Shown here: positions 559 to 45,100 of the stretch, in pieces
Numbering within the stretch: position 1 is the stretch's first letter
Layout: every line of letters starts with the position of its first letter
NCBI RefSeq assembly: GCF_032854445.1
Contig: NC_088295.1
Location: 86,348,644 to 86,412,643, forward strand
Reading direction: 5' to 3'
Length of the DNA: 64,000 nucleotides
Source of the DNA: Liolophura sinensis
Taxonomy: Eukaryota > Mollusca > Polyplacophora > Chitonida > Chitonidae
Program-made: the position numbers and the translations under genes
Notes under the pieces: generated by a model
What the model was told of the DNA's origin: nothing
The model's input: the letters and a program-made list of their open reading frames with translations, nothing else
The model's database searches: none

Positions 559-3500
559 AATGTCCCCGTAACGCGCCCGGCATATGTCGATGTGATAAGA
601 TCAATCGGTGTTACCTGTTCCTACCCCAACACACCCAGTGGCCATGGGCCCAGGCCTCGTGTGAGCGATATGGTGGTAGCCTGGCCGCTGTCAGAGATGA
701 CACCACCCGCTCTCTCATCACCGCTACGCTCATGGCCGACCCATCCAACTGGTTCGAGCTCTGGCTTGGTGGATTCCTGGAAACTCACAATTGGAAATGG
801 TCCAAGGGTAAACATTTCTTTTAGTTTAAAGCATTTTAGAATACTTCCCCCATGGAATTGCTTTTGCCGTATTTCCAGCAAAATTTCTTTCTAATTGACC
901 GATCGTAATATCACTAAACTCATTGTCAATCAAAATAATATATCAGCCTAGCAGAAGATTTTGTATGTCCAACTTGCCACCGATTTATGTACAAGATTCA
1001 GTTCAGAAATGTGTTAGACAATATCCATTTTATTCCCCCGGTCAGTTATTCCATGTTCATTGAGATATTTGACGCAGATATGGTTGCCTCTGCGAATAGT
1101 CACTTACGCCCCATATAGATCTTGTCCAAGAACACATTTTCCTGTCTTACTTTTCCGACAGCGATATATGCTTAAACGTAAATACCTCGTTTCAGATCAA
1201 ACCTACATCAGTTTGGATTATTTGGGATGTTTTTCGACCAACTCGCCGGTGTCTGGGGGACGTTTGTGGTGGAATGATGGTTACAACTCCGCAGATATCT
1301 GCATTTCGCAGTGTCAGTCTGTCAACATGAGATATGCTCTTTTACGGGTAAGACAATGTGTCTGTAACTCAACACTGCACCCATTTTTTATCTAAAACAT
1401 CGTTTGTTAGGACATTTGTCATCAAGTAAATGAGCCGTTAAGTGTTTCTTCCGGTCGTAATTCACAAGGTTGACATATTTAATACTGTCTGTGAATAGTT
1501 TGCCATCGTTCGCCCCATACGGAGCAAAGGTCAAACATATATACATACATAAAGGATTCCAGAGCTAGTCCTATGTCTTGCAGGTTTCATATAGGAGATT
1601 ATGCTTATACCTTAAACTGAACGTCTTTCTTTTCTTACCTGCATTCACAGGGTAATCGTTGTTACTGTCAACCGGCGTTTGACTTTAGTGTGTGGGTGAG
1701 AGTGGCTGAAGCTTTCTGTAACCCTCAGCCAGGCTTTATGACTGAAGATTACAGGGTGTATGACGTGGCTGGTGAGAAGCTTTTCCACCTTCTTACTTCA
1801 TTACATATTATGAAAGCTATATGAAGCCTCTGTTTCCAGTTACACTAATATGTATTAAACAGCAGCATAAAAATTATGTATAGATAAAAGAACTAGTCCC
1901 AGATATTTTTAACTCTATATCTCTTGCTCCTGCACGTAGACGGTTTCGTTAAAGCGTGACGTCACACTGAAGAACAAATAACTGCTATATACTGGCTTGC
2001 AACTGAATCTTTGACAACCTGAAGGTGTTAAATCCAAATTATAGCGTTTGAATTGGCAAACTGTTTTGTCTTTAGCTTCATCATTTGTCCGGTGGCATCA
2101 CGGGCAGCCTGCCATCACCCTGGGCTCCACTCCGGATCTGGACTGCGCCACCATCGAGAAGTCCGGACGGCCGGAGAACCACACGGCCTGGTACCTGGAC
2201 TACTGCGAGAGACTGCTCAGTTATATCTGTGAACACAGTACGTATACAAGTACACCATCTCTCATGTACGATGTCACATCATGAATTATTTTACAACATT
2301 TCAGTGTACCGATTGGTACATGTACCTTAGTTCATTCCGATGAATGTACAGCTATTCCGTCGGGTTCATTTTGTAAGCGTATAATGAATGTGACATTAAT
2401 GATCGTTGGTGATCTCGGAACCCATTTCGGTTAATGGCTCGTGTACAAATGTGTCTTCTGACGCCTAATTTCATTGCATATCCCCTTACACAGTAATAGG
2501 TACATATATGTCATCTTTACGATTCTACAATATGGTATCTTAATAACTGTCTAAATGTAGTTTTCATAATATAAAACCAGTAATAACCGAATTGTTCCAT
2601 GTTTCTCATTTCTCGAATGTGATCGTTTGTTTCCCAACAGGAACAGCCATCCAAGGCAGCAGTGGTGGGGCCTCTTCATATGTTACGTTATACACTCTTT
2701 CCACGAAAAAGAGGTCTTGGTTTGATGCGGACACTGCCTGTAGGAATACTGGAGGTGTCTTGGCTCAACTCTCCGATAGAGGAACATTCGCTTCCGTCAG
2801 TAATATAATACCGAACATGAGCAGATACTGGATTGGCTTATCGCGAAGGACGAGATACTGGGCGTCAGGTAAGTAGAGAGCGGAAAAGGCAATCGGTAAA
2901 ATGATGGTACTTCTCACTTCTTTTGGAATAAATGGAACCTTGGTTTCGAAAACAAGCTTATGAGGTTTAACATTATGAATTAGGGTATTCTACCATTGTC
3001 TCTGAAATATAATGGACATCCAACACCGGTGTGTAGAGCTTGTGGTGTTAACTGTCACTGACGAAAGACAATGTTGAATCGGTAGTGACCATGAGTGATT
3101 TTACGAATAACTGAATACAGGCGACAATTCAAAAGAAGTAGACTACATTATTATTTTGTTGCCGTATTTTTAGTCTAATAGACCGAATTTATGACTGATA
3201 TGATAATGCTGTATCATTATTCTTTTCAACAGATACAACCTTTCGACCATCGCCAAATGGGATTTGTTTAGCTTTGCAGACAAAGTCGACCTACAATTGG
3301 CAGAGCTGCAGTAGGTGGATGCAGTACTTATGTCAAGTCAGTAAGTATACCACGGCTCTTGATTTCCTCTATAACCATTTGAAGCGTGTTTCTTCCTTGG
3401 GAGTTTCAATGTGGCTTTTAATACTACATCTTTGGATCATTCCACGAAGCTGTGTCTCCATGTAGCAGGCCAGACCATCTTATTTCATACTGATGTCTCA

Positions 3501-5899
3501 ATGGCAAGCCAGCTCGAACACACCAAATTGTGTCTCAGTAAGTCACATTATACAAACTGTAAACCAACCATTACTTGACCTGTTTGCTCATCCTTAGGGC
3601 TGAAATCATGAGCGTCTTGAAAGGAACACATATGGCAATATCATTATTTTGTATACATATAATGTATCTAGGTCTGCAATGAATATTTGCTAATATGGCT
3701 CCCTAGTTACTTTGTAAAGGCTGCAATATGATTTATTCACAGGTTTCGCCAACGCCACTCTAAGTGACACAACAACGACAAGAGCAGTAACAACAACACC
3801 AATTCCTACTACAACCTCGACAACCACTACAACAACACCAACACCAACGACGACAACAACAACGACGACGACGACAACAACCCCACCACCAACTACTACT
3901 AGGTCTACTACAACTACGACAACCACAACACCGCCACCAACAACCACAACAACAACAATTCCACCTACCACCACAACAACAACTACCACGACAACAACTA
4001 CCACTACAACAAGTCTCGCTCCGACTACTACCACAACAACAACTACAACAACACTGCCCCCAACCACTACACCAACAACTACAACTACAACAACACTGCC
4101 AACAACCACTACAACAACTCCTGTTGCGATAGCGACAGCGCCAACTACCGTGCTGACGACTTCACCAGTGCAAAAGACAATTCTGGTGTCAACTCAAGGT
4201 TTTCCCGCCAAGACGACCCCGCGCAAGCCATATTTCCCAGAAACACCTAGACCCTCTGACACTATAACAACTGCTTCACTCTTCCCCGGAGAGAATATCG
4301 ATCCAACGGCAACAAATAACCAAGGTGGATTTATTCCCGACACAACGTTTTCTGCGGTAGGCAACGACAGTGTCGTTCCGAACGAGGCGGAAATTGGTAA
4401 GAAAATATCGTAACTATGTCAAACCAAACTGACGTACATGTAGTCCCCAATTTTAGGATTAGAAAATAAAACACCAATTGCATAATAACCCCATGCCATG
4501 CTGATGGAATTGACCACACTGAACGTGTGAACATATACTACAGTATATTCATCTTGTGCAATTAGATTAAATTTGAATTTTCCTTCGTGCATAGGCAATC
4601 GATACCGATTGCTTGACCAAAATGCAATTACTTGCTGGGTATACTCTAACTGGGTGATATTTGTTTGTTTGCAGACGTGTTGCCGCTTTTCTTGGGCGCG
4701 GGGATAGGAATTCCTGTTTTTCTCGTGCTCCTCCTAATCTGCATTGTCTGCCTCTTTCTGTAAGACATCATTTTTATAATTCACCTTTAAGCTAGATGAT
4801 TCCATTTTAAGCCTGAAGTAAGATGCGTCACAAGATGTCCGTCTTTCACTAGCACTCGTCTAATCTGTTATTCTGGAACCTTGCCAGAAAGAGAAAACGA
4901 CGAAGATCACACATAGCTTTTTTACGTCAGATTCTTTAACATGGGATTTAAAACAAGTTATTTTCAACTTTAAACTTAACTCATCCTAATCCACGTGACA
5001 CCTGCACAAATATCTTCACGGCTATCCCTCAGACATTTCCGGATTTATTCGCTTTGATCTCTTTATCAGGAAAGGTTACAGTGACGTGCTGTAAAAGTCA
5101 GTCACTGATATACTCACGCGTTCTTCTCCTCTGACCTTGGCTGACTTCATGGTGAAAGACCCCACTTGCAGTGCGACAGTCATTTCGAAAGCTCCCACAC
5201 GATCGACTGAGTCTTTAAGTCTGGAATTTTGTCTGATGAGGTGTTATGGTTTCCTCTGCTCCTGTAAACCTTAGAAACCGTCATATATAAGTACAATTGT
5301 AAGTGAATATATACTCTCACAAAGGTAACTATAATATTCTTCATTATAGGGCCCGACGAAACCGGAGGAGAAAGGTGGAGAGAGAAAAGACTCTATGGGC
5401 GGTGATTGATGACGACCCTAAGCTGGAACCTTTACCCCGAAATCCCCGGATGCTGGGTACGGGACAGGTCGCTTCCTCTGTCTACAGCCTGCCACGGGAC
5501 TCCAAATATCGCTACGTCCGGAGGGTTCCGTCCACGTACGCCACGAACGACAAAGGCTGGCCAAAGTCCGCCCTCAAGAAGAGCGCAGATCTCAACGTGC
5601 CGTTTAAGAAAGACGGAGCTATGGAGGAAGGCATGTCTGATGACACGGCCTCAACAATCCTCCCAGAAGAATATAACAACCCGATATATCTAAATTATTC
5701 CGGCTCGGACGCCCGCCAAAGTCTGAATGATTCTGGAGTGTCCAGCAGCACTAGTCATTCTGAGGGTCAACCTCGGAGGACGAATTCCAAACCAGTCGTC
5801 ACAATAAAGTCTCCGCAAGCTCCCCTTACAAATATGCAGCCGTATGGTCCAGCCTTTGGCATAGAGAGACTTTATGATGATGCTTATACAGCCTTCTGA
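559..5899 (+). CDS. C-type lectin / WSC domain transmembrane receptor with mucin-like stalk (5' end missing)
   Basis: Nine exons join in frame: 559-807, 1196-1347, 1651-1771, 2076-2237, 2641-2868, 3233-3340, 3743-4396, 4675-4759 and 5350-5899 (TGA 5897-5899), giving about 769 residues. Order of parts: first half of a CTLD (Cys-rich start, CERYGGSLA, LGG, WKW); a WSC domain in two exons; second half of that CTLD (WHHGQP, DC, YLDYCERL, YICE); a second, more diverged CTLD in two exons; a Thr/Pro stalk; one membrane helix; a basic stop-transfer stretch; and a tail of about 180 residues. Exon 559 begins in phase 1, so an earlier exon with the signal peptide should exist upstream. The in-frame ATG at 522 lies across the acceptor and is a weaker alternative start. 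WSC and CTLD modules usually bind glycans, so surface glycan recognition is inferred. Neither CTLD shows an EPN or QPD calcium motif. Exon structure is well supported; the ligand is unknown. Confidence 0.87.
1196..1771 (+). other. Two-exon WSC domain cassette inside the first CTLD
   Basis: Exons 1196-1347 and 1651-1771 encode a cysteine-rich module starting LDYLGCFS, with later C-x3-C spacing and NRCYCQP, which fits a WSC carbohydrate-binding domain. The cassette starts and ends in phase 1, so it is symmetrical. It lies between the exon ending at 807 and the exon starting at 2076, which together make one ordinary CTLD. Skipping both exons keeps the reading frame. Confidence 0.75.
3743..4396 (+). 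repeat. Threonine-rich mucin-like stalk coded by an ACN repeat
   Basis: This single exon is mostly ACN codons (Thr) with scattered Pro, Ser and Ala from about 3760 to 4140, then a less repetitive Pro/Thr/Ser stretch. On the minus strand the same DNA reads as a poly-valine frame, which is an artefact. Such stalks are usually heavily O-glycosylated and hold binding domains away from the membrane. The run of near-identical codons should make its length variable between alleles. Confidence 0.8.
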
Positions 5900-9120: not shown

Positions 9121-9258
9121 TGGTTGTTCAAAAGTGTGTAAGCAGTTAAGCTTGATATTAACTTCAGCCTGGAATAAAGTGCCATTATAGTTTGTATTGG
9201 GCCAAGACTGTATTAAGATTTAAGCCTGGCTAAAGTTTTAATACACTCTGAACAACCA
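9121..9258 (+). mobile_element. Short MITE with GGTTGTTC terminal inverted repeats, copy 1
   Basis: The left end GGTTGTTCAAAAGTGT and the right end ACACTCTGAACAACC form an imperfect inverted repeat about 138 bp apart. It sits just after a tRNA-like B-box (GAGTTGGAATCC), apparently inside a SINE. A copy in opposite orientation is at about 13530-13657. Confidence 0.6.
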
Positions 9259-9370
9259 ACACCAGCTGTCGTTGTTTTGGGCGCGGCTTTAAGTCAGACA
9301 CCAGACGAAGCTGGGCGGTTTTCCCCGTCGACTGCGTTTCCTCGCCCATAAACCTGACTGCAGTCATACA

Positions 9371-10008
9371 ACTGACAAACTCTTGACCACAGCGTTGAAC
9401 ACCAATTACAAACTCAAGAGCACGGCGTTGATCACCAAGGACAAACTCTTGAGCACAGCGTTGAACACCAATGACAAACTCTTGAGCACAGCGTTGAACA
9501 CTAATAACAAACTCTTGAGTACAGCATTGAACACCAATGACAAACTCATGAGCACAGCGTTGAACACCAATAACAAACTCTTGAGTACAGCATTGGACAC
9601 CAATGACAAACTCTTGAGTACAGCGTTGAACACCAATTACAAACTCTTGAGTACAGCGTTGAACACCAATGACAAACTCTTGAGCACAGCGTTGAACACC
9701 AATAACAAACTCTTGAGTACAGCGTTAAACACCAATGACAAACTCTTGAGCACAGCGTTGAACACCAATAACAAACTCTTGAGTACAGTAATGAACACCA
9801 ATGACAAACTCTTGAGCACAGCGTTGAACACCAATAACAAACTCTTGAGTACAGCGTTGAACCCCAATGACAAACTCTTGAGTACAACGTTGAACACCAA
9901 TGACAAACTCTTGAGCACAGCGTTGAACACCAATAACAAACTCTTGAGTACAGCGTTAAACACCAATGACAAACTCTTGAGCACAGCGTTGAACACCAAT
10001 AACAAATG
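9371..10008 (+). repeat. 33-bp minisatellite, about 19 copies
   Basis: Unit: GACAAACTCTTGAGCACAGC followed by GTTGAACACCAAT, with A/G variants alternating between neighbouring copies. The 33-bp period equals 11 codons with no stop in several frames, which explains the long open frames on both strands (for example 9383-10009). The unit resembles the 3' end of the SINE family of this window. No signal peptide, splice sites or non-repeat coding sequence support a protein. Confidence 0.9.
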
Positions 10009-10014
10009 AAGGGG

Positions 10015-10145
10015 ATAATGCAACGACTGGTTGACCCGTATCAGAAAAATGGCTCGGGCGGGGCCGCTTACTTGCCTTCAGTAAGCCATCTCAGTGAAGC
10101 AGCACTAGATAAAAGAGCGGTGGAAATCCGTCTTGCGACAAATTT
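10015..10145 (+). mobile_element. Fragment of a second SINE family
   Basis: Matches the interior of the element at 13115-13450 in opposite orientation (ACTGGTTGACC, ATGGCTCGGG and AGCAGCACTAGATAAAAGAG blocks). It directly abuts the 33-bp array. Confidence 0.6.
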
Positions 10146-18800: not shown

Positions 18801-21800
18801 CTTGGCAATTGAAAAGAAAAGGCTTAACCTTCAATCTGAGTATGTAGTACACACCATACCTTAGATTAAGGAGCTAAAAAAAGCTTATCCTTTAATCCAT
18901 GTATAAGTGCTCAACATACAAGAACCAAAAAAAAAGAAGCTTAACCTTCCATCTGAGTATGTACACTAGCACACCATACCTTAACCTAGTGAGCTTGTTG
19001 GCAGTTGAAAAAAAAAAGCTTAGCCTTCCATCTGAGTATGTACACTAGCACACCATACCTTAACCTAGTGAGCTTGTTGGCAGTTGAAAAAAAAAAGCTT
19101 AGCCTTCCATCTGAGTATGTACGCTAGCACACCATACCTTTGAAAAGGGAGCTAAATAGGCAGTTTAAAAACAAAAGCTTAACCTTCCATCTGGTATGTA
19201 CATTTACACACCATACCTTAGACTAGGGAGATGAAAAAAATGCTTAACCGACAATGCCATTTTCCCTCCCTCTTACAACATCTTGCAAGCTAACATTGAT
19301 TAAAACTTTAAAATAATAAATCGATTCTTGGAAAAATCTTTCAAAAATCCAAGCCAAATGCCTACATGAACCAAAGAAAGATAATGTCTTAAAATTCAAA
19401 AGTACTTATGTTCACAGTAACAATAATTTTGGTTAAATATGTATTTTTATGGCTTCTTACCACTAACTGCTACAATGAGCATCTGTTCAGGAATACCACT
19501 TGTAGGAAAATGAATTTAATCATGTGCCATTTTGAAACTAAACCTACATTATCCAGGAATGCAACCATGAATCAATGGCACAGCTTTCCTTGAAATCTAT
19601 AGGTAGTTTATCAATTCTGGTCTGTTGCCTGCGGTGCATGTAAGAGGGGAGACAACTCTATTTCACTAGTCACCAAGACGTGGAATTATACAGTACTCAT
19701 AGCTTCACATATTTCATGTACCTCTGTGCGAACATCCATAACTCCTTCCTCTGTGAGTGTGCTCATATACAGTACCGGGATGCCATCCGACTCAAAGCCG
19801 CAAAAATATTGCTGAAAAAAAAACAACAAAAGCAGACAATCACAGGGGTGACAAAGATATTTAGCTGGGACAAAAAGAGAACAAAAGACAAAACCAAAGT
19901 TTAATTCATAGAAGAACAAACCATTCCTTATCCTATAACCTGTACCGGAAGGTTAAATACACCAAGGCACATTCCTAACTTGTGACTCATGTTTAGAAGG
20001 TGTTTATCAACATCATAATACAGCCAGAATTATTGCTAAAATATACAAGCATACATTTCACCATGATTTTACTAATTTTATACAGACCTTTTTCTCATCA
20101 TCCAATTCCTCTAACCTTTTCACATCAATTTTATTCACAACCACAATCAGTGGTTTATTGGCAAACAGCGGCTTTATGTTCTGAAACAACTCAACCTACA
20201 AAAACAACAGCAATAAAAGAAGAAATTAGAACTCTGATTTATTATATAAAAAAAAAAGACATCAAGCAACGGTCAAAACAAAGGCTTTATGAAATAATGA
20301 GTATAAATACTAACTTGGCAAGGGAGATAATCCGTACCTGTTCTGTAATCGAGTGTCCACACTGCTCAGAGATGTCCATAACATAGAGCACTGCAGCCCT
20401 CAGGTGAGCCAGGGCTGTGATGGCCTGCATCTCTATTGTGTTACGATCCTCCAGGGAGTGGTCCAGAATTCCAGGTGTGTCAATTACCTGTGAGAATTAC
20501 ATCAGCAAAGATGTACCCTTCACTGCGATATGTCCGAGCAACAACCTGACATGCAGTAGACTTTCACATACAATTATTAAATACTTGCATGAAAAGACTG
20601 TATATCACCTATAACTGATTGGCCTATAACCTGAAATGCACACAGTTTGAAACAACTCTCTTATTCTGTTCATACATACACACAATTTTCTAAATACTAT
20701 ATTCTAAAGAAAAAATAACAGTCTTACAGTTCAGCTCAGGCTAAAAGTTAATTATTTACTGCTTGCATCATGCTCCAAGATACTGAATAACACTCCACTG
20801 GCCCGTGACAAACCCTCTCCTGGCCTGTGTCGGAGGCCTGCTAAGGCACGTAGGATTATCGCTGGAAGACGTGAATATAGTTCTGTCTACAGACATATCC
20901 TTGTTTGCAAGCAAGGTGCCGACCCCGTGTTTCAGCTATTTGAACACATCCTAGACGTGAAAAGTGGAAAGTTTATCTTACAATATGTAACCTACCTCTG
21001 CACCACAAAATCAACTTAAGGGAGTAAATATGCGATCAAAGTCATCATCAACGGTCGGTACATTATTTTGATATACATTTACACTATCCCATATAGAACC
21101 AGGCAACAGATATTTTATAGTAAACTGGCCAAATCTTTCATAACATTTCACAAACCAAGGGAACATTTCTGTGAATAAAGTACATGCAATAGCGTGCGCT
21201 TCTTGCCTAGGACATCGTCCTAACACCGGCAGAGAGCAGTCTTGTGTGGCCGTGCCTCTGCGTGCAATAGCGCGCGCTTCTCGCCTGGGACATCGTGCTA
21301 ACACCGGCAGAGAGCTGTCTCGTGTGGCCGTGCCTCTGCGTGCAACAGCGCGCGCTTCTCGCCAGGGACATCGTGCTAACACCGGCAGAGAGCAGTCTTG
21401 TGTGGCCGTGCCTCTGTGTGCAATAGCGCGCGCTTCTCGCCTGGGACATCGTGCTGACACCGGCAGAGAGCAGTCTCGTGTGGCCGTGCCTCTGTGTGCA
21501 ATAGCGCGCGCTTCTCGCCTGGGACATCGTGCTAACACCAGCAGAGAGCGGTCTCGTGTGGCCGTGCCTCTGCGTGCAATAGCGCGCGCTTCTCGCTTGG
21601 GACATACCCCTAACACAAACAGAAAGCAATCTTAAGTGGCTGGGTGCCTCTGCATGATCTTTCATGCTCATCTCTTATAAATTGTTGTGTTTGAATAACG
21701 GTGACCTCTTAATAACATCATGTTTTCACATTACTGCAAGGATAGTGTGAGCCTCATGAAAAGAAAAAAAACAACAAAAAGACAACCCAAAATATGTATG

Positions 21801-24800
21801 TTCATGTTATGTCACCAGGCTGCAGATCTTTCATGGTATGATGGGCATGTAGACCTAGCCACAGGTTTTTTTTTTTTTGATCTGACTGGTGTGTTTAAGA
21901 AATTTTCAAGACTAGCCAACATCACTGTCTGTACAGACATGCTCAGTCGCTGACCGAATAGCTGCCTAGAGAGTTATACACAGGAGTGATTTACACAGAA
22001 ACTTGCATCAGCCCAAGCAGTATTTGGAGAAATCAACCTTTTCCTATTGTTTATGATTTTCAAAACCATACAGGCTGTGTTAGATAATAAAGTTTGACAC
22101 TTTTGAGTATCATTTACGTACTCCAATACAACATGTCTATTGTTTTACAATTTTGGCAAAGTGTCACTGCCGGACAACAAACCTGCATTAGTTCTTCTTC
22201 CAGGTCTCTGCATGACACTTCTGAATATTTTAATTAAGCCTGGGATTAAGACAGATGTCTATCTTAATCTCAGATTAGGATTTTTCAACGGCAAATGACT
22301 CTTAAGAGGAAAACCTTCTACAGAAGAAGCTAAAGATATTTGTCCATCCTTTAGCATGTTTTGGGAGATGAAGAATGAGCTAGTTTTAGCAGTTGTAATG
22401 ATACATTACAAATCTAACTTGAACTAACTCATAAATCACAACTTCATATATTGTCACCTTGTGATCACAAATACACACATCAGACATTTTACTTCAGTTT
22501 CATGCTTTGTGTTAGTCCTTCAAAAATCTTTTAAATTATTTTAACAAAGAACTATATTTTCCATTGTCAACTTCCCAGAACCATCGTGTAAGCCTACCAA
22601 TGCTCAGCCATGTGTTTGATCAGTCACAGTGGACGCAGTAGACTGTCTACAAGCCCTCTACAAAGTCACTACAAGGTCCCTTGGATCGCATTAATCTCCC
22701 GTCTGGTTTTGACTTTTAGCCTGAGCTGTACTGTATTTTGAAGTTATCAAGGGTTAAAATGAACACTTTAATGTAACCATGGTCTAAACTCCATTTACAT
22801 GGAGACATTCCGTGACTTATCTTGAATCATTCTGCTGGTTGGTCACACACATAGCTCACTGTACCTTTCTCAACTTTATTTTAGCTTTAAATTATGAACA
22901 ATGTATAACGAAATAGGTAAGATGTTGACTACATAATTAACTGTGTGTAAAATGACTGACTGACCTGCCACCTGAGGTATTTGTAGTCTGTATGACCAAC
23001 AAACAGAGACTTTGTGGTAAATGCATACGGCTGCACTTCTACATCTGCCCTTGTTATCTGAAAAGGTAAACATATCTCCTGTTATCAGTGGAAGTGCCAT
23101 AGTCAAACTGGTTGAAAACTTCTTTCGAACTCACTAATAACTACCAATGCTACTAACTTGAACATTATCCTAAATGTCATATAAGTGATTTTCGAAAACT
23201 TCTAATAACTAACAATGCTTTTACACAACTAATAACTACCTGTGCTACTAACTTAGACATTGCCCTAAATGTCAACTACGGTAAATGGCCTAAAGTTTCG
23301 CACGTGATACATATCACGCGAGATACTTTCACATCTGAGTTTGCGGCAAGATGACAGAAGAGAGTGATTAGCGAGTCCAGCATATTGGGAGACCAGAATT
23401 GTTCGAGTTGTTATCACATTAGGAGTTTGCACAACACCGTCACCAGATTTATAAACAAAATACATATACAGTTTTGCCCACATGTGATTTATGTGTTGAA
23501 TGCAACAGATAAAATTATTGTTTTGCCTTCCGTCAGAAAAATCACGTGATCGATGGGTAGACGTGGAAATTTTGAATCCTGTGATTGTTACTGGCTTGTA
23601 GCTACATACATGTATAGATAAAAACCAATCTGTATGACTAAAATTTTATCTGAAGGGGACTCGATTAAATATTAAGTAAATTAAGCATTCATGTTTACGA
23701 AATATGGACCAAAGATGACAGTCTTTCAAATTACTCCAGAATGAACAAGTACTATTTCGCTGCATCAGTGCAAACGCATGTGTGCAGGTCTCGCGTTGAT
23801 CGCAATTTGACATCTTCACCTCTTCTGCTAGTAGGCCTAGTTTACAGGTATAGATTGGTGAGGTATTAAATTCTGATATAGCTTGTATACGGAGAGCCAT
23901 GACCTCTGATATAGCTTGTATACGGAGAGCCATGACCTCTGATATAGCTTGTATACGGAGAGCCATGACCTCTGATATAGCTTGTATACGGAGAGCCATG
24001 ACCTCTGATATAGCTTGTATACGGAGAGCCATGACCTCTGATATAGCTTGTATACGGAGAGCCATGACCTCTGATATAGCTTGTATACGGAGAGCCATGA
24101 CCTCTGATATAGCTTGTATACGGAGCGCCATGACCTCTGATATAGCTTGTATACGGAGCGCCATGACCTCTGATATAGCTTGTATACGGAGAGCCATGAC
24201 CTCTGATATAGCTTGTATACGGAGAGCCATGACCTCTGATATAGCTTGTATACGGAGAGCCATGACCTCTGATATAGCTTGTATACGGAGAGCCATGACC
24301 TCTGATATAGCTTGTATACGGAGAGCCATGACCTCCACATGCGTAAAGGTACTGGGTAGTCACGCTGAATTTCCACATGAGTTTTCTCCCAAATCCCCAT
24401 TTATCACAAAATAACGATAATAAAACCTGTTACGAAGTGCATGTACTAAAATTATTATGATTAAAATTCAGGAGAACATGAACTGTCGGTGGTAGGAGCA
24501 TAAACTAACTGCTCAGTTAGTATGCGTGAGCTTGTTTTTTACATTCTTGAATTGTCAGTATTATCCCCTGACCACCCCTGATGCTCCCCCGTGGTCCTCA
24601 GTCAGTAACAACCACAACCCACGCAATGAATGGGGTACACTTTCCGAATCCCAGGCGAAACTTTAGGTCATTTACCGTAAGTGTTCTTCTAAGACCACTG
24701 CTAACTACCAATACTACTAAATTGGACATTATCCTAAATGTCAACTAAAGTGTTCTTCTAGACAACTAATAACTACCAATGCTTCTGGACAACTAATAAC

Positions 24801-30800: not shown

Positions 30801-33800
30801 TCAGCGTACAAAGCCTAGAAAGCACTCTTCAGTTCATCTTTGAAGTCTTTATTGACAGACAGGTCAAGAGGCTGCAGTTTGTCCGTGCAACAGGCAGGAA
30901 CAAAGACAACATTAACGTTGTTCCTCTTTAGTTTTGTCAATAAGTCACTCCCCTGATGCGCCTTGAAAACATCAAAAATGGCTACCGATTTCTGCAAGGC
31001 AGTAAGCTTCATGGTTTTATGGGTCTGGCGGATGTATGGAAGCAGAGCCTCGTCAACATATCTTAACACGGGTTCTTCAGTGCTCCAATGTGGCTTGGTA
31101 TGCGACACATCCCAGCCCTCAGGAAAAGTCAAATGGGGATGGCAATGATCCGACTTGCCGCCGTAGATCAGCTGAGGCGGAAGGAAATCACCTGCCCTAC
31201 TGACTGCCAGAAGAGTGGTGATCTGCCGCTTGTCATCAATGCCGTTCACTATGACTTACCGGACGTCTCCATCATCCACTCTTCCCACGGTACCATGCTG
31301 ACGCCAGCATGGTCCCAGTTAATGATTAGTTCGTCAAGGATATCTACTCTCAGACCGCGGACTCCACTCTCTCCACAAAAGCCTTCTACAGACTGTTGAA
31401 ATCTTCGGGAAGCCGCTTAACATCTTTTGTACCCTTCCACTTGACGTACCCTAATCGATGCAGGAATAACTTCACCCAGGAGTCAGTAATTGTTACATAA
31501 CAAAACTCCTTCAGCAGCAGCCATCACAATCCTACTGTTAATAACACCTACGTTCATCTGGACTTTTTCCACCCAACTTCTGACCATCCCATTGTACGTC
31601 TCACCTAAGAGAAGGTGAGGACCACATGGTTCTTTGGGGAGTGCTGGAATTGCCGTCTGTGGGCTGGACTTCACTCATTGAAGATACGATTTCTTCACTG
31701 CACTCACAGTACTCTCGTTGACAGATCTGCCAAGCTTTGTACAAAATTTGCAAGCAGTGCGGGCTACTCCAATTTCTACAGCAGTTCTTGCAATTTTGGC
31801 TCTGGTTTCCTCATCAAAGCTGTCGTATTCCCCTCGTTTTCTCTTTCGAGAATTCATGGCCGTTCGCACAACTTCATTTATGGCTTCCGTCGTTTCAGCT
31901 TCCTCTAGGGTCTCGCAGGGTTGTGGGTTTGGCAAGACAGGAGTGGTCGGAGGCTTCGTAGTGGTTATCCATTTCCAGAAAGACATTGTGTTATCTGACT
32001 GCGATAATCAGGTATGGATGGATTGCTCTCGTGACAGTGTATTTATACGTTTTAAAACAGAAGGTGTGAAAGGCTTATGATAGGTGGTGATAATCCACCA
32101 GCCATAGTTTTAATCTCTGATCCAGGTTATAAGGATTAGCATCACTCGTAAGAAACAAAAGAGGATTAATTCAATGAATTAAATATGCGAAAATTAATCC
32201 CGCGAATCAGTTTTTTTAACAAAAACCGCGAAAATTAATTCCTGCGAAAAGTAAGTACTTTACAGTATTGATCTCTGAAACAAAAACTAGAGTAGAAATA
32301 TGAGAACAGTTTACGTGAGTGTTCTTAATTTGGTATCAGATGTTTGCAAAGTATTTTTTGGCTTGTCTCTCATATCTACATGGGTTTCTCACTTGTCCAT
32401 CAGATATCTATGTAGGGTTACTTACTTGTCTATCAGATGTCTAGCAGTGTTGATCTGCCCCAGGGCAAGCTTGTAATGGTCCTTGTCATACAAGACGTTC
32501 ATCAGATCGGCATAAAACGGATGTATGTCCTACAGCAGCAAACCCAGAGATACTGATGATTATCTCACGAAAACAAGGCTGATCACACTAAACTCATGTT
32601 TATGTCTTCACTGTTGGGAAGATTTGGTTTTTTAAAACATTTAAATATTAACAATAAAGCCTCAGATGAAATACAAAGTAACACGTATATAACATTAACA
32701 CCAATATGAAATACATATGGTCAGTGGTTTACTTCAGTTTCCTTCACACGTAATCCTAACAGATATCCTAAGTCACAAGGTGTGTCACGTATCTGAAAAA
32801 GGTCAGTGGTTTATTTCAGATTCCTTTGCACATAATCCTGCCAGCTATCATAAGTCAAAAGGTTTGTCACTTATCTGACAAAGGTCAGTGGTTTACTTCA
32901 GTTTTCTTCACATGTAATCCTGACAGCTATCGTAAGTGAACAATTCTTGAGCATGGCATTAAGCAATCAAATAAAGAAAGAAATTTACTATGGTAACAAT
33001 TGAGCTGACCACCAAATACAGCTGTGTCTTGATACCAGGTTTGATAATACTTCACTTGTCTGATATGTACAGGCAGTAGTAATATATCACGTTTGATAGG
33101 AATTTAGTGATGTCAGGTTTGAACTTGCAACTCATCAGTTCAAGAAGGACTAGAAGTCTTCAGACATCTTAAGGGAAATTACATATATTCATCTGATTCA
33201 AAGGTAAGATCAAAAAGAAAAGATCACCTTTGATCACTGGTCTATTCAATTTAAACTTCTAACAACTTATAAGTAACAGCTGAATACCAAAATGAAATTT
33301 ACCTCCAGTTTGGGAAAGTCATTGAGGATAAGTGTCAACTTGTCATGGTAATTCTGCTGAGTGTACTTGACTTTTCTCATGTAAAACTGACGAATCCTGG
33401 AGATCTTGTAGTGTTTGTGAACCACAGTTGGAGTCTTCCTCTGAGTCTTTGACAATATTATGTCGACAAAGTCCTGAAATAGATAACAAAAAAAAGCAAT
33501 GTTATGCTCAGAACAACTAGGCAGTGGTGTTGGGAAGTTCAGAACCAGATGATTAGTCAGGAAAAGATATTGATGGCATCATGCTTAAGCTTGAATCATA
33601 AGTCGCTCAGTTCAAACGGGTTTGGGCAAACCACAGCAGACAGTCACGTAGATGAGAATGACCTGTCTGAATCATTAAAAAGCATATGCACACAGGTAAT
33701 TTTATTCAAAAATTACAATACTATTATCACAAATCATGATGTGTCACTTTAAACACTGAAGAAGCTTCCCTTACTGGCCACGTGTTTACGTTGGCGTGAG

Positions 33801-42102: not shown

Positions 42103-45100
42103 ATGGGTTTGGAACTGACTGGAGTATTCACAATGGATCAGATTCACCACCATGGACTGCTGATGATTCAGTACCTACAGGTCTCTCTACAGGTAAGTAG
42201 AAGTTTGTATTTTAACTAAATGAATTTAAGTCCAAATCAAAATTTAATATATATTGTTTTCCTGCAGCCAAGAGCAGTGTATCATGGTTAAAACTCTACA
42301 GCTGAACTGATTAGAATCAGTCAGGAGGTCTCAACCATACAGCAGCTGCCATTGTTAAAATGAAACATTCTTTAATATGACATTAAACACCAGTCAGATG
42401 GTCAAGTATTTTTTAGATGGATTTCCACTGGACTTTATCCGATGCCTTTCATTCATAAACCTTATCTTCTTTTATTAATAAACTATTCTTCAATGTAATA
42501 CACCAGGCAAGGAAATAAATACTGTAGCCTAGATATTAAAAACAGTGTACCTCATTGTAGTTGAACAACATCTGTTTTTGTCCTATATCTCTCCTTGTGT
42601 TCTTGACATTTAGTAGAACATGTAGATGCAGCATAAGATGATACTGTGTGATTGGTGATGTATTGTTTTCATTTTTGTTGTTCTCCTTTCAGCCACACAG
42701 CAAGTTTCTGATCTGGATCTCTCACCTGAGCAGTCCAGCCTGGTCCTATACCGTTTACTTCCCTCTCTCCTATTACCTGCACAAGTCTGTGGGACGTAGA
42801 GTGCTGCTGGTAGCATCTGTGGCTGAGTGGCTCAATGCCGTGCTCAAATGGTAAACTACACTAGTGACAGGATGTACACCTATACATCACCACAGTTACA
42901 TGTAATCAGAAGTACACACATAGAGAGAAGTGTGCCACACTGTCTTTATGATTAGTACACACATAGAGAGAAGTGTGCCACACTGTCTTTATGATTAGTG
43001 CACACATAGAGAGAAGTGTGCCACACTGTCTTTATTATTAGTACACACATAGAGAGAAGTGTGCCACACTGTCTTTATGATTAGTACACACATAGAGAGA
43101 AGTGTGCCACACTGTCTTTATGATTCCTGATCTAGGTACTCCCACTCGACGTTAATTGGTGTGTACCCTCACAGTAGTAGCTGATCTGACATTTCTAGAT
43201 GAATGCCTCACAGTGCATTCTGTCAAAACTTACAGTACTTGCTGATTGTCAGCAGATTAGCAGTTATTTTTCCATATTTCCTCCTCTGTGTTGCTTTGTG
43301 TGTTTTGAGTAACATCAGCCCAGTGACCTATAAGACCAGCTGGAACGTGAAAAAACAAAGGCAAGCTTTTCCCTCTTGTACTTCTGATCTAATACCGTGC
43401 ATTTTAGAGGAGAAGACCAATAGTGTTAAATGTTTAACTGTTAATTAGCAGTGATCCATAAGGAGGTTGAAAAAGTGTGAAAACCCACACTACATGTATT
43501 TCCCACATCCAGCAAGGCTGAGCTTGTTGTGGTATCTTGTTTTCAGTAATTGGACATATGGACGTTTCATTTTGCATATGTTATAACTTTTGTGAAAAAG
43601 GTCTCTGATCATAATGAACCCTTGACCTGTGAGTTTGCATACTCAGATCCAACTTGTGGTGTGGCCGTAATGTATTAAGGTCTCGAGGGTTGGCATGTAC
43701 CTACATCGTATCAGGGAAATAGTGTTAAATTTGATGTCTTAACACCAATCATATCGACAAACGAAAGAAACTCTTAGTAAAGTATGTATGTTATGGACAT
43801 GCATTAATTTTGAGGTTTGCACATGGTGATGTCTATATAATTAATAGGTAGGGTAAAGCCAGGGAACTACAAATGTGGGGTATCTTTTTACCAGATATAC
43901 AGAGGTTAGAAATTAGTTCATTTTAAAAGTATTTAATATGTAAAGCTGAAGTTTCCTGCTGTAGTCCTGAACAAAACATGTTCATGTTCTCCATTATTAG
44001 GTAGATTTCAGCTAATACTTATTTGTAGAGAGAATATTTAGTATTTTCAGCATTTGGCCAAAAGTGTTGGAAGTTACACAACTTCACCCTCACTGTGCAA
44101 GGTTTTTTTTGGTATCAATGTGTGTGTGTGTGTGTGTTACAGGATCCTTCATGGGGAGAGACCTTACTGGTGGGGTCATGAGGCTGGTATGTGTCAGGGC
44201 AATGACAAACCCTGTAATCAGTTCTACATCACTTGTGAAACAGGACCAGGTGAGAGGCTTCCCCACCATCCTTAATAACACTTCAGACGGGTTAGGTACT
44301 TGTAAGTTATCAAGTTACATCTGTCAGTAAATGGTGTTAACTTGAAATCTGTGTTGAATCCGCGTGGATGTTCTGTATTGCCCACCTGATCATACATGTA
44401 CAGACGATATATTCTCTTCCCTAGCTCTAAGATCAGTTGGCCATGTTCCCAGCTTAGCTTCCATACTAATCGCTCTGGATCGATATGCAACAACTCGCTG
44501 TCTTGCCTTTTGGCAATTCAGAATAATAAATTTAAAAATCCATTGATACTAGAGATCATAGCCAAACATAAAAAACTAATTAAAAGAGGTAAAGATATTA
44601 TATTCTGTTGGATACCAAGTCACACTGGTATCCATGGAAACACAGTTGTGGACAGGGAAACGAAAGCTGCCCTATATAAACCTGTATCTCGGGTTAAAAT
44701 CCCGTATACTGACATAAAGTGTAATATTCTTAAATATATTCATCGACTTTGGCAGGGTGAATGGGACTTGCAGATCCATAATAAACTGCATGCTATTCAT
44801 CCTGTCGTTGGCTACAATGCCTATACTTACCAAATGCCTCGTAGAGACCAAGTCGTTTTAACAAGGTGTCGTATTGGGCATTCTCATCTGACACACAATT
44901 TCATCTTAGATGGGAGCAGTGCTCCCGTGTGTGTTGGATGTGATGCACCATATGGCATCAACATATCCTAGTTGACTGTGTAGACTTTGCTCATGTTCGG
45001 CAAAGATTCTACACGGTCAACTCTATATATGATTTATTTGACAGCATCACTGGCGATGTTGTCATAAAATATTTGAAGACCATTGGGCTTTATCAGAAAA

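Follow-up and report, generated by a model that had tools for sequence, protein, structure and literature searches.

The locus considered here raises the question of whether one extracellular module can be carried within the loop of another and, if it is, how it came to be there and what it would do for the protein. In the chiton Liolophura sinensis, whose assembly was first published as Liolophura japonica (PMC11068029) and whose species name was changed in a correction (PMC12441733), two exons coding for a WSC domain lie between the two halves of a C-type lectin domain (CTLD). They are found near the start of the window, i.e. the whole stretch of 64,000 nucleotides that was analysed (contig NC_088295.1, called C1 below, positions 86,348,644 to 86,412,643), and all positions given below without a contig name are those of the window. 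The answer to which the evidence leads, and in which we place good confidence, is that the WSC cassette is nested in the first CTLD of a type I receptor by shuffling into an ancestral intron, and that it is probably spliced in and folded as a head.

Based on a reading of splice sites and frame, the locus is a single plus-strand gene of nine exons in one continuous open frame, amounting to 770 codons with the cassette and 679 codons without it, stop included. The first exon of the model, CTLD1a (559-807; phase 1 in, 1 out), was assigned from its Pfam match and frame and codes the first half of the host CTLD, as far as ...WKWSK; its first codon is split, with the first base lying in an upstream exon outside the model. 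There follow the upstream cassette-border intron (808-1195; 388 bases, phase 1), the exon WSCa (1196-1347; phase 1 in, 0 out), the intron within the cassette (1348-1650; 303 bases, phase 0), the exon WSCb (1651-1771; phase 0 in, 1 out), the downstream cassette-border intron (1772-2075; 304 bases, phase 1) and the exon CTLD1b (2076-2237; phase 1 in, 1 out), which codes the second half of the host domain, ASSFVRWHHGQP...ICEH. A second CTLD is coded by CTLD2a (2641-2868; phase 1 in, 1 out) and CTLD2b (3233-3340; Pfam and frame). Beyond it lie a long Thr/Pro-rich stalk exon, mucin-like by composition (3743-4396), an exon in which one transmembrane helix, VLPLFLGAGIGIPVFLVLLLICIVCLFL, is recognized by inspection (4675-4759), and a last exon (5350-5899, stop codon at 5897-5899) for a cytoplasmic tail with a YRYV motif at tail position 53 and an NPIY motif at tail position 110. 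The product would be a type I membrane receptor with a pair of CTLDs on a Thr-rich stalk, followed by a single transmembrane helix and a tail that bears tyrosines. Pfam scans of the ectodomain ahead of the stalk and of the tail returned only Lectin_C and WSC in the former and zero matches in the latter. A first scan of the 10 kb upstream found no signal-peptide exon, and a rescan gave one poor candidate; with looser limits and 20 kb of upstream DNA, there were a few candidates at about -8 kb and from -16 to -19 kb, none of them convincing, and for this reason the model lacks the gene's 5' end. Just 5' of CTLD1a, at 1-130 and 355-480, inspection reveals two SINE-like copies that are similar to each other and have A/T-rich tails.

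The initial annotation had taken exons 559-807 and 2076-2237 for the two halves of one CTLD, and the pairing has stood up. The exons carry GT/AG sites, their direct join is in frame (...WKWSK-ASSFVRWHHGQP...), and the joined product matches Lectin_C (PF00059) at 36.8 bits (E 6.9e-9), covering profile positions 3-106 of 107. CTLD1a by itself reaches 21.8 bits, under the Lectin_C cut-off of 22.6, and CTLD1b by itself has zero Pfam matches, while CTLD2a and CTLD2b joined give Lectin_C at 33.1 bits; in these separate queries, as in the CTLD1 searches of the genome and of solved structures, CTLD1 ended in EHS, where the spliced protein has EHR, and the CTLD2 queries began with G, where the spliced protein has R. 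With correct splicing, the ectodomain from which the cassette is skipped yields two Lectin_C matches, 60.2 bits in all, and the ectodomain in which it is included yields Lectin_C plus WSC, with Pfam recognizing just the first half of CTLD1. A phmmer search of joined CTLD1 against solved structures produced 26 matches at E<=0.01, headed by the PLA2 receptor (i-Evalue 4.6e-5 for the best of its single CTLDs). By inspection, the four canonical CTLD cysteines (bonded C1-C4 and C2-C3) are all present, in ASC of CTLD1a and in LDC, DYC and ICE of CTLD1b. In total, CTLD1a has five cysteines, CTLD1b three and the cassette six, and numbers that are odd in each half, even in the halves jointly and even in the cassette alone fit the expectation for a nested unit.

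Pfam scores were nevertheless rejected as proof of how the halves pair, since the swapped combination 2a+1b, at 39.0 bits, beats 1a+1b at 36.8 bits (1a+2b gives 29.6 bits), and the pairing in CTLD1 therefore rests on exon order. What is shown at the level of sequence is that CTLD1a, CTLD1b, CTLD2a and CTLD2b are CTLD halves. A mispaired model, in which the halves combine into different CTLDs or a fusion of two genes has been taken for one, could draw on that swapped score and on the fact that all half-domain borders are phase 1, with many combinations in frame. It is in our judgement highly improbable, given that the order 1a-1b-2a-2b yields two complete CTLDs in sequence and that the introns between are of 278-590 bases, without sign of a terminal exon, a promoter gap or a further gene. 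The initial annotation would have been refuted by a separate second half of a CTLD in the interval 807-1196, and none was found: Pfam has no match for the ORF at 939-1118, and tblastn with the gene's two CTLD second halves returned nothing in that interval at E<=1. In CTLD2, inspection of exon 3233-3340 reveals a very short stretch from W-A-S to the next cysteine, and this domain seems to be without the long loop where CTLD1 carries its WSC domain.

The exons at 1196-1347 and 1651-1771, between the CTLD1 halves, had been read as coding a WSC domain, and they do so by their match to PF01822, at 31.9 bits, above the cut-off of 27.8. The score is 30.0 bits when the cassette is placed inside CTLD1 and 28.9 bits in the whole ectodomain, and in every context the alignment stops at profile position 57 or 58 of 82, i.e. 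it covers the first two thirds of the model only. The cassette product, DQTYISLDYLGCF...YDVA, is of 91 codons and has six cysteines (GCF, DIC and SQC from WSCa; NRC, YC and AFC from WSCb) where the first six of the eight WSC cysteines are expected; WSC cysteines 7 and 8 are missing, as is the CGG motif to which cysteine 8 belongs, and the product thereby falls short of the eight cysteines and four disulfides of a full WSC domain. In Kremen1, the WSC disulfides are C122-C186, C147-C167, C151-C169 and C190-C198 (PMC5014086), and the pattern in the WSC domain of yeast Wsc1 is similar, its last pair being C90-C98 (PMC9024836). The two cysteines that the cassette is missing make up one disulfide pair, C190-C198 in Kremen1 and C90-C98 in Wsc1, and the loss of both partners together would be expected of a WSC domain which keeps its fold. 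Strands 1 and 5 lie next to each other in the solved structure of the WSC domain (PMC5014086, PMC9024836), and so the two ends of the cassette should sit close together, as insertion into a loop requires. The WSC domain may be pictured as folding into a disulfide unit of its own that projects from the CTLD loop. A phmmer search of the cassette against solved structures gave seven matches, short scorpion-toxin chains with a best E of 0.25, and these are read as chance.

Both introns that flank the cassette are phase 1, and its exons, of 152 and 121 bases, add up to 273 bases, so that the frame is kept if both are included or both are skipped, just as the initial annotation had it; dropping one WSC exon alone breaks it. 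With 3n bases, phase 1 at both ends, phase 0 inside and borders that match those of the domain, the cassette is a class 1-1 module, as defined in the literature on exon shuffling, and this class is said to dominate such shuffling in animals (PMC8001218). Splice sites were scored with generic weights and ranked against the 3,968 GT and 3,613 AG of the window. The WSCa donor (top 0.5%), the WSCb acceptor (top 1.5%) and the WSCb donor (top 0.8%) all rank high, and the WSCa acceptor, at 3.6 bits and in the top 18.7% of AGs, scores lowest among nine. The GC content of the cassette exons is 0.45 and 0.49, as against 0.35-0.39 across the gene's eight introns. A codon score, for which 1,573 codons served as training set, gives each cassette exon a positive value in its coding frame and in no other (0.23 and 0.39). 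Of 591 and 981 overlapping windows free of stops, 4.6% and 1.1%, respectively, reach these values, with the weakness that the same score puts a wrong frame of CTLD1a (0.35) above the right one (0.18) and comes near to ties for CTLD2a and CTLD2b. The cassette, whose two exons are separated by a phase-0 intron, would be spliced in, most likely in the majority of transcripts.

It is possible, if less probable, that the cassette is alternatively spliced, with a plain CTLD and a WSC-carrying CTLD made from the same gene and receptor binding switched between them. Skipping gives a CTLD with normal core spacing (36.8 bits), the frame is kept only if both WSC exons are in or out together, and the two donors of the cassette are strong but its WSCa acceptor ranks last of nine; symmetrical 3n modules are, moreover, said to suit frame-preserving skipping (PMC8001218). 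However, symmetry is expected for any shuffled module, and a switch of this kind demands co-regulated skipping of two adjacent exons. Far less credible is the proposal that the WSC exons are a separate small gene in the intron, or that they belong to a truncated transcript ending after 1771. The WSCb frame does stay open to a stop at 1824, which makes an unspliced end possible, but the ORF ahead of WSCa (1018-1395) is without the signal peptide that a six-cysteine extracellular domain needs, and the flanking sites are phase 1, in frame with the host exons.

Turning to where the cassette came from, a WSC-family search of the genome had four matches, namely, the cassette itself, C1:23332321, C1:25413029 and C1:17801045. 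The loci around the second and third, L012 (C1:23328500-23338400; WSC, PKD and REJ) and L014 (C1:25408500-25418400; WSC and PKD), are by their predicted domains polycystin/REJ-like genes. At C1:23332321 and C1:25413029 one exon spans the whole WSC domain, the WSC domain at C1:17801045 is split at profile position 38, and that of the cassette is split near position 57; as the exon structures differ in this way, none of these matches is a fresh source of the cassette. Two other WSC domains of the genome keep all eight cysteines and share 30% and 21% identity with the cassette. In L013 (C1:17796500-17805500), which has a WSC half-exon, one downstream ORF was scanned and had no Pfam match; the downstream ORFs of this locus have what we take to be a resemblance to peptide O-xylosyltransferase. 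A recent copy from another WSC gene was considered and ruled out, as the DNA of 808-2075 is unique in the genome, matching itself alone, and the cassette protein finds, besides itself, one stop-bearing match (E 0.134) that lies in an apparent tandem repeat. With no fresh source in the genome, either the insertion is old or its source has been lost. In a collection of genome contigs that is without eukaryotic genomes, the cassette had 25 pattern stretches and one relative, 45% identical over cassette residues 37-65, in a Caldilineaceae MAG (L016), and among viral contigs it had seven pattern stretches, none a relative.

This history bears on the idea that the WSC exons are dead, i.e. that they are a module that landed in an intron and is always skipped. 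The weak WSCa acceptor would suit such a module, as would the loss of one disulfide pair and of CGG, yet 273 bases are open in frame, the six cysteines are a pairable set and the other splice sites are strong. There is, in addition, no close donor left in the genome, given the 30% and 21% identity to the two other WSC domains, and a neutral remnant of that age should carry stops, whereas the cassette is open. We regard a dead module as very unlikely.

The place of the insertion can be compared with that of introns in related CTLDs. A search of the genome with the CTLD1 protein had 19 matches at E<=1, which include two to itself; out of the 17 non-self matches, eight CTLD copies in seven loci (L005-L011) were inspected, with splice sites called by eye. 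An intron after the W-x-W stretch, phase 1 by reading frame and followed by a second-half exon, is present in all eight, with lengths of 439-1,278 bases, and CTLD2 of the same gene has an intron at the corresponding place, again with no cassette. Genome-wide, at least 33 Lectin_C matches among the 120 listed, for which 150 of the 376 candidates were scored, start at or before profile position 5 and stop at 58-72, and they look as first-half exons would. The paralogous chiton C-type lectin receptors of L005-L011 have in common with our gene the first-half exon and the place and phase of the intron and, in some loci, there are Thr-rich, transmembrane or NPNY-type tail ORFs downstream of the CTLD; they differ in that their intron is without a WSC domain, and their first-half exon is 27-33% identical to CTLD1a. 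The cassette protein had no match in the seven loci at E<=1, and no second nested case was seen among the eight copies inspected. Six of the eight introns hold ORFs with at least four cysteines (seven ORFs, zero Pfam matches), and thus a cysteine-rich ORF at this place is not telling by itself. Outside the chiton, fish antifreeze-type CTLD genes (groups VII and XII) have an intron downstream of WIGL (PMC514892), a likeness for which homology of the site is putative; the passages of that source on the intron describe no module in it. Most likely, a class 1-1 module entered an old phase-1 CTLD intron; more exactly, exon shuffling would have brought a class 1-1 WSC module into an ancestral phase-1 intron just past W-x-W, at the start of the long loop of CTLD1. 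In the intervals C9:15447184-15512551 and C9:2657972-2661381, first-half exons of related CTLDs lie in clusters, with Thr-rich and tail ORFs downstream of some of them, and these clusters are a local family of CTLD receptors.

The gelatinases MMP-2 and MMP-9 have fibronectin II modules inside their catalytic domain, and integrin alpha-I domains lie inside a beta-propeller, and in both a shuffled module in the loop of another domain adds or takes over ligand binding. The chiton gene is like these in having a module in a loop and differs from them in its host and guest domains. According to a survey whose main text uses neither 'lectin' nor 'WSC', domain insertion occurs in 20% of multidomain proteins (PMC13114784). 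Such insertion being common, the kind of arrangement is known and the WSC-in-CTLD pair seems new; we would describe the nesting as what seems to be ordinary exon shuffling at an unusual place. The initial annotation had held that WSC and CTLD occur together elsewhere as neighbours, for example in polycystin-1, and that it knew of no nested arrangement described, and both points agree with the literature: human PKD1 has the two domains (PMC1934368), as separate neighbours, and no description of a WSC domain nested in, or interrupting, a CTLD was met in that part of the matching open-access papers that was covered. Like the chiton protein, polycystin-1 (WSC and CTLD) and the sea urchin REJ proteins SpREJ6, 7 and 10 (WSC) are membrane proteins (PMC1934368), but in that family WSC and CTLD are separate and accompanied by PKD repeats and REJ, whereas the chiton WSC domain is inside the CTLD, and Lectin_C and WSC are the sole Pfam matches in the ectodomain ahead of the stalk and the tail has none. 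Kremen1 and Kremen2 are likewise type I membrane proteins with a WSC domain, for which the fold has been solved, with four disulfides and adjacent first and last strands (PMC5014086); they differ in having Kringle, WSC and CUB in a row, no CTLD and no nesting.

What the nested domain would contribute can be approached from its host. In CTLDs that bind sugar, the long loop carries EPN or QPD, and WND precedes the third cysteine. At these calcium/sugar sites the host CTLD reads, by inspection, QPA (GQPAIT) and WYL (WYLDYC), and the absence of EPN/QPD and WND suggests that CTLD1 acts as a scaffold and does not bind sugar. The WSC domain of Kremen1 contacts Dkk1 (PMC5014086), aromatic clusters on the WSC domain of yeast Wsc1 matter for its function (PMC9024836), and WSC and PAN-like domains bind proteins also. 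The initial annotation had spoken of a carbohydrate-binding module displayed from the long loop of another; the location of the WSC domain on the long-loop side of the CTLD has held, and the sugar-binding part is weakened in view of QPA and WYL in the host and, in the cassette, no CGG and one disulfide lost. We propose that the host CTLD would act as the scaffold and the WSC domain as the ligand-contacting head of a stalked receptor, with NPIY in the tail serving uptake or signalling. The further idea that the WSC domain took over as ligand head on a non-sugar-binding CTLD by way of the old intron, and that it can be switched by splicing, is a speculative one that we put forward with considerable reserve.

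Since the CTLD long loop tolerates great variation and binds most CTLD ligands, a full domain in that loop would show receptors gaining a binding head without losing their fold. Shuffled modules usually join end to end, whereas the chiton case used an intron within a domain; the conserved phase-1 intron would explain the insertion, and it predicts other modules at that place in other genomes. If the proposal is true, the CTLD long loop, via an old phase-1 intron, can take in a whole folded module.

Elsewhere in the window, there are tandem repeats at 9230-10077, 21011-21674 and 23646-24429, with long open stretches on both strands and repetitive ORFs (e.g. ALNTNDKLLST) that are not likely to be genes. 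Additionally, the minus-strand ORF at 30815-31255 presumably resembles a DDE-type transposase, and the plus-strand ORF at 44390-44971 has a resemblance that we take to be to an RNase H-like piece of a retroelement.
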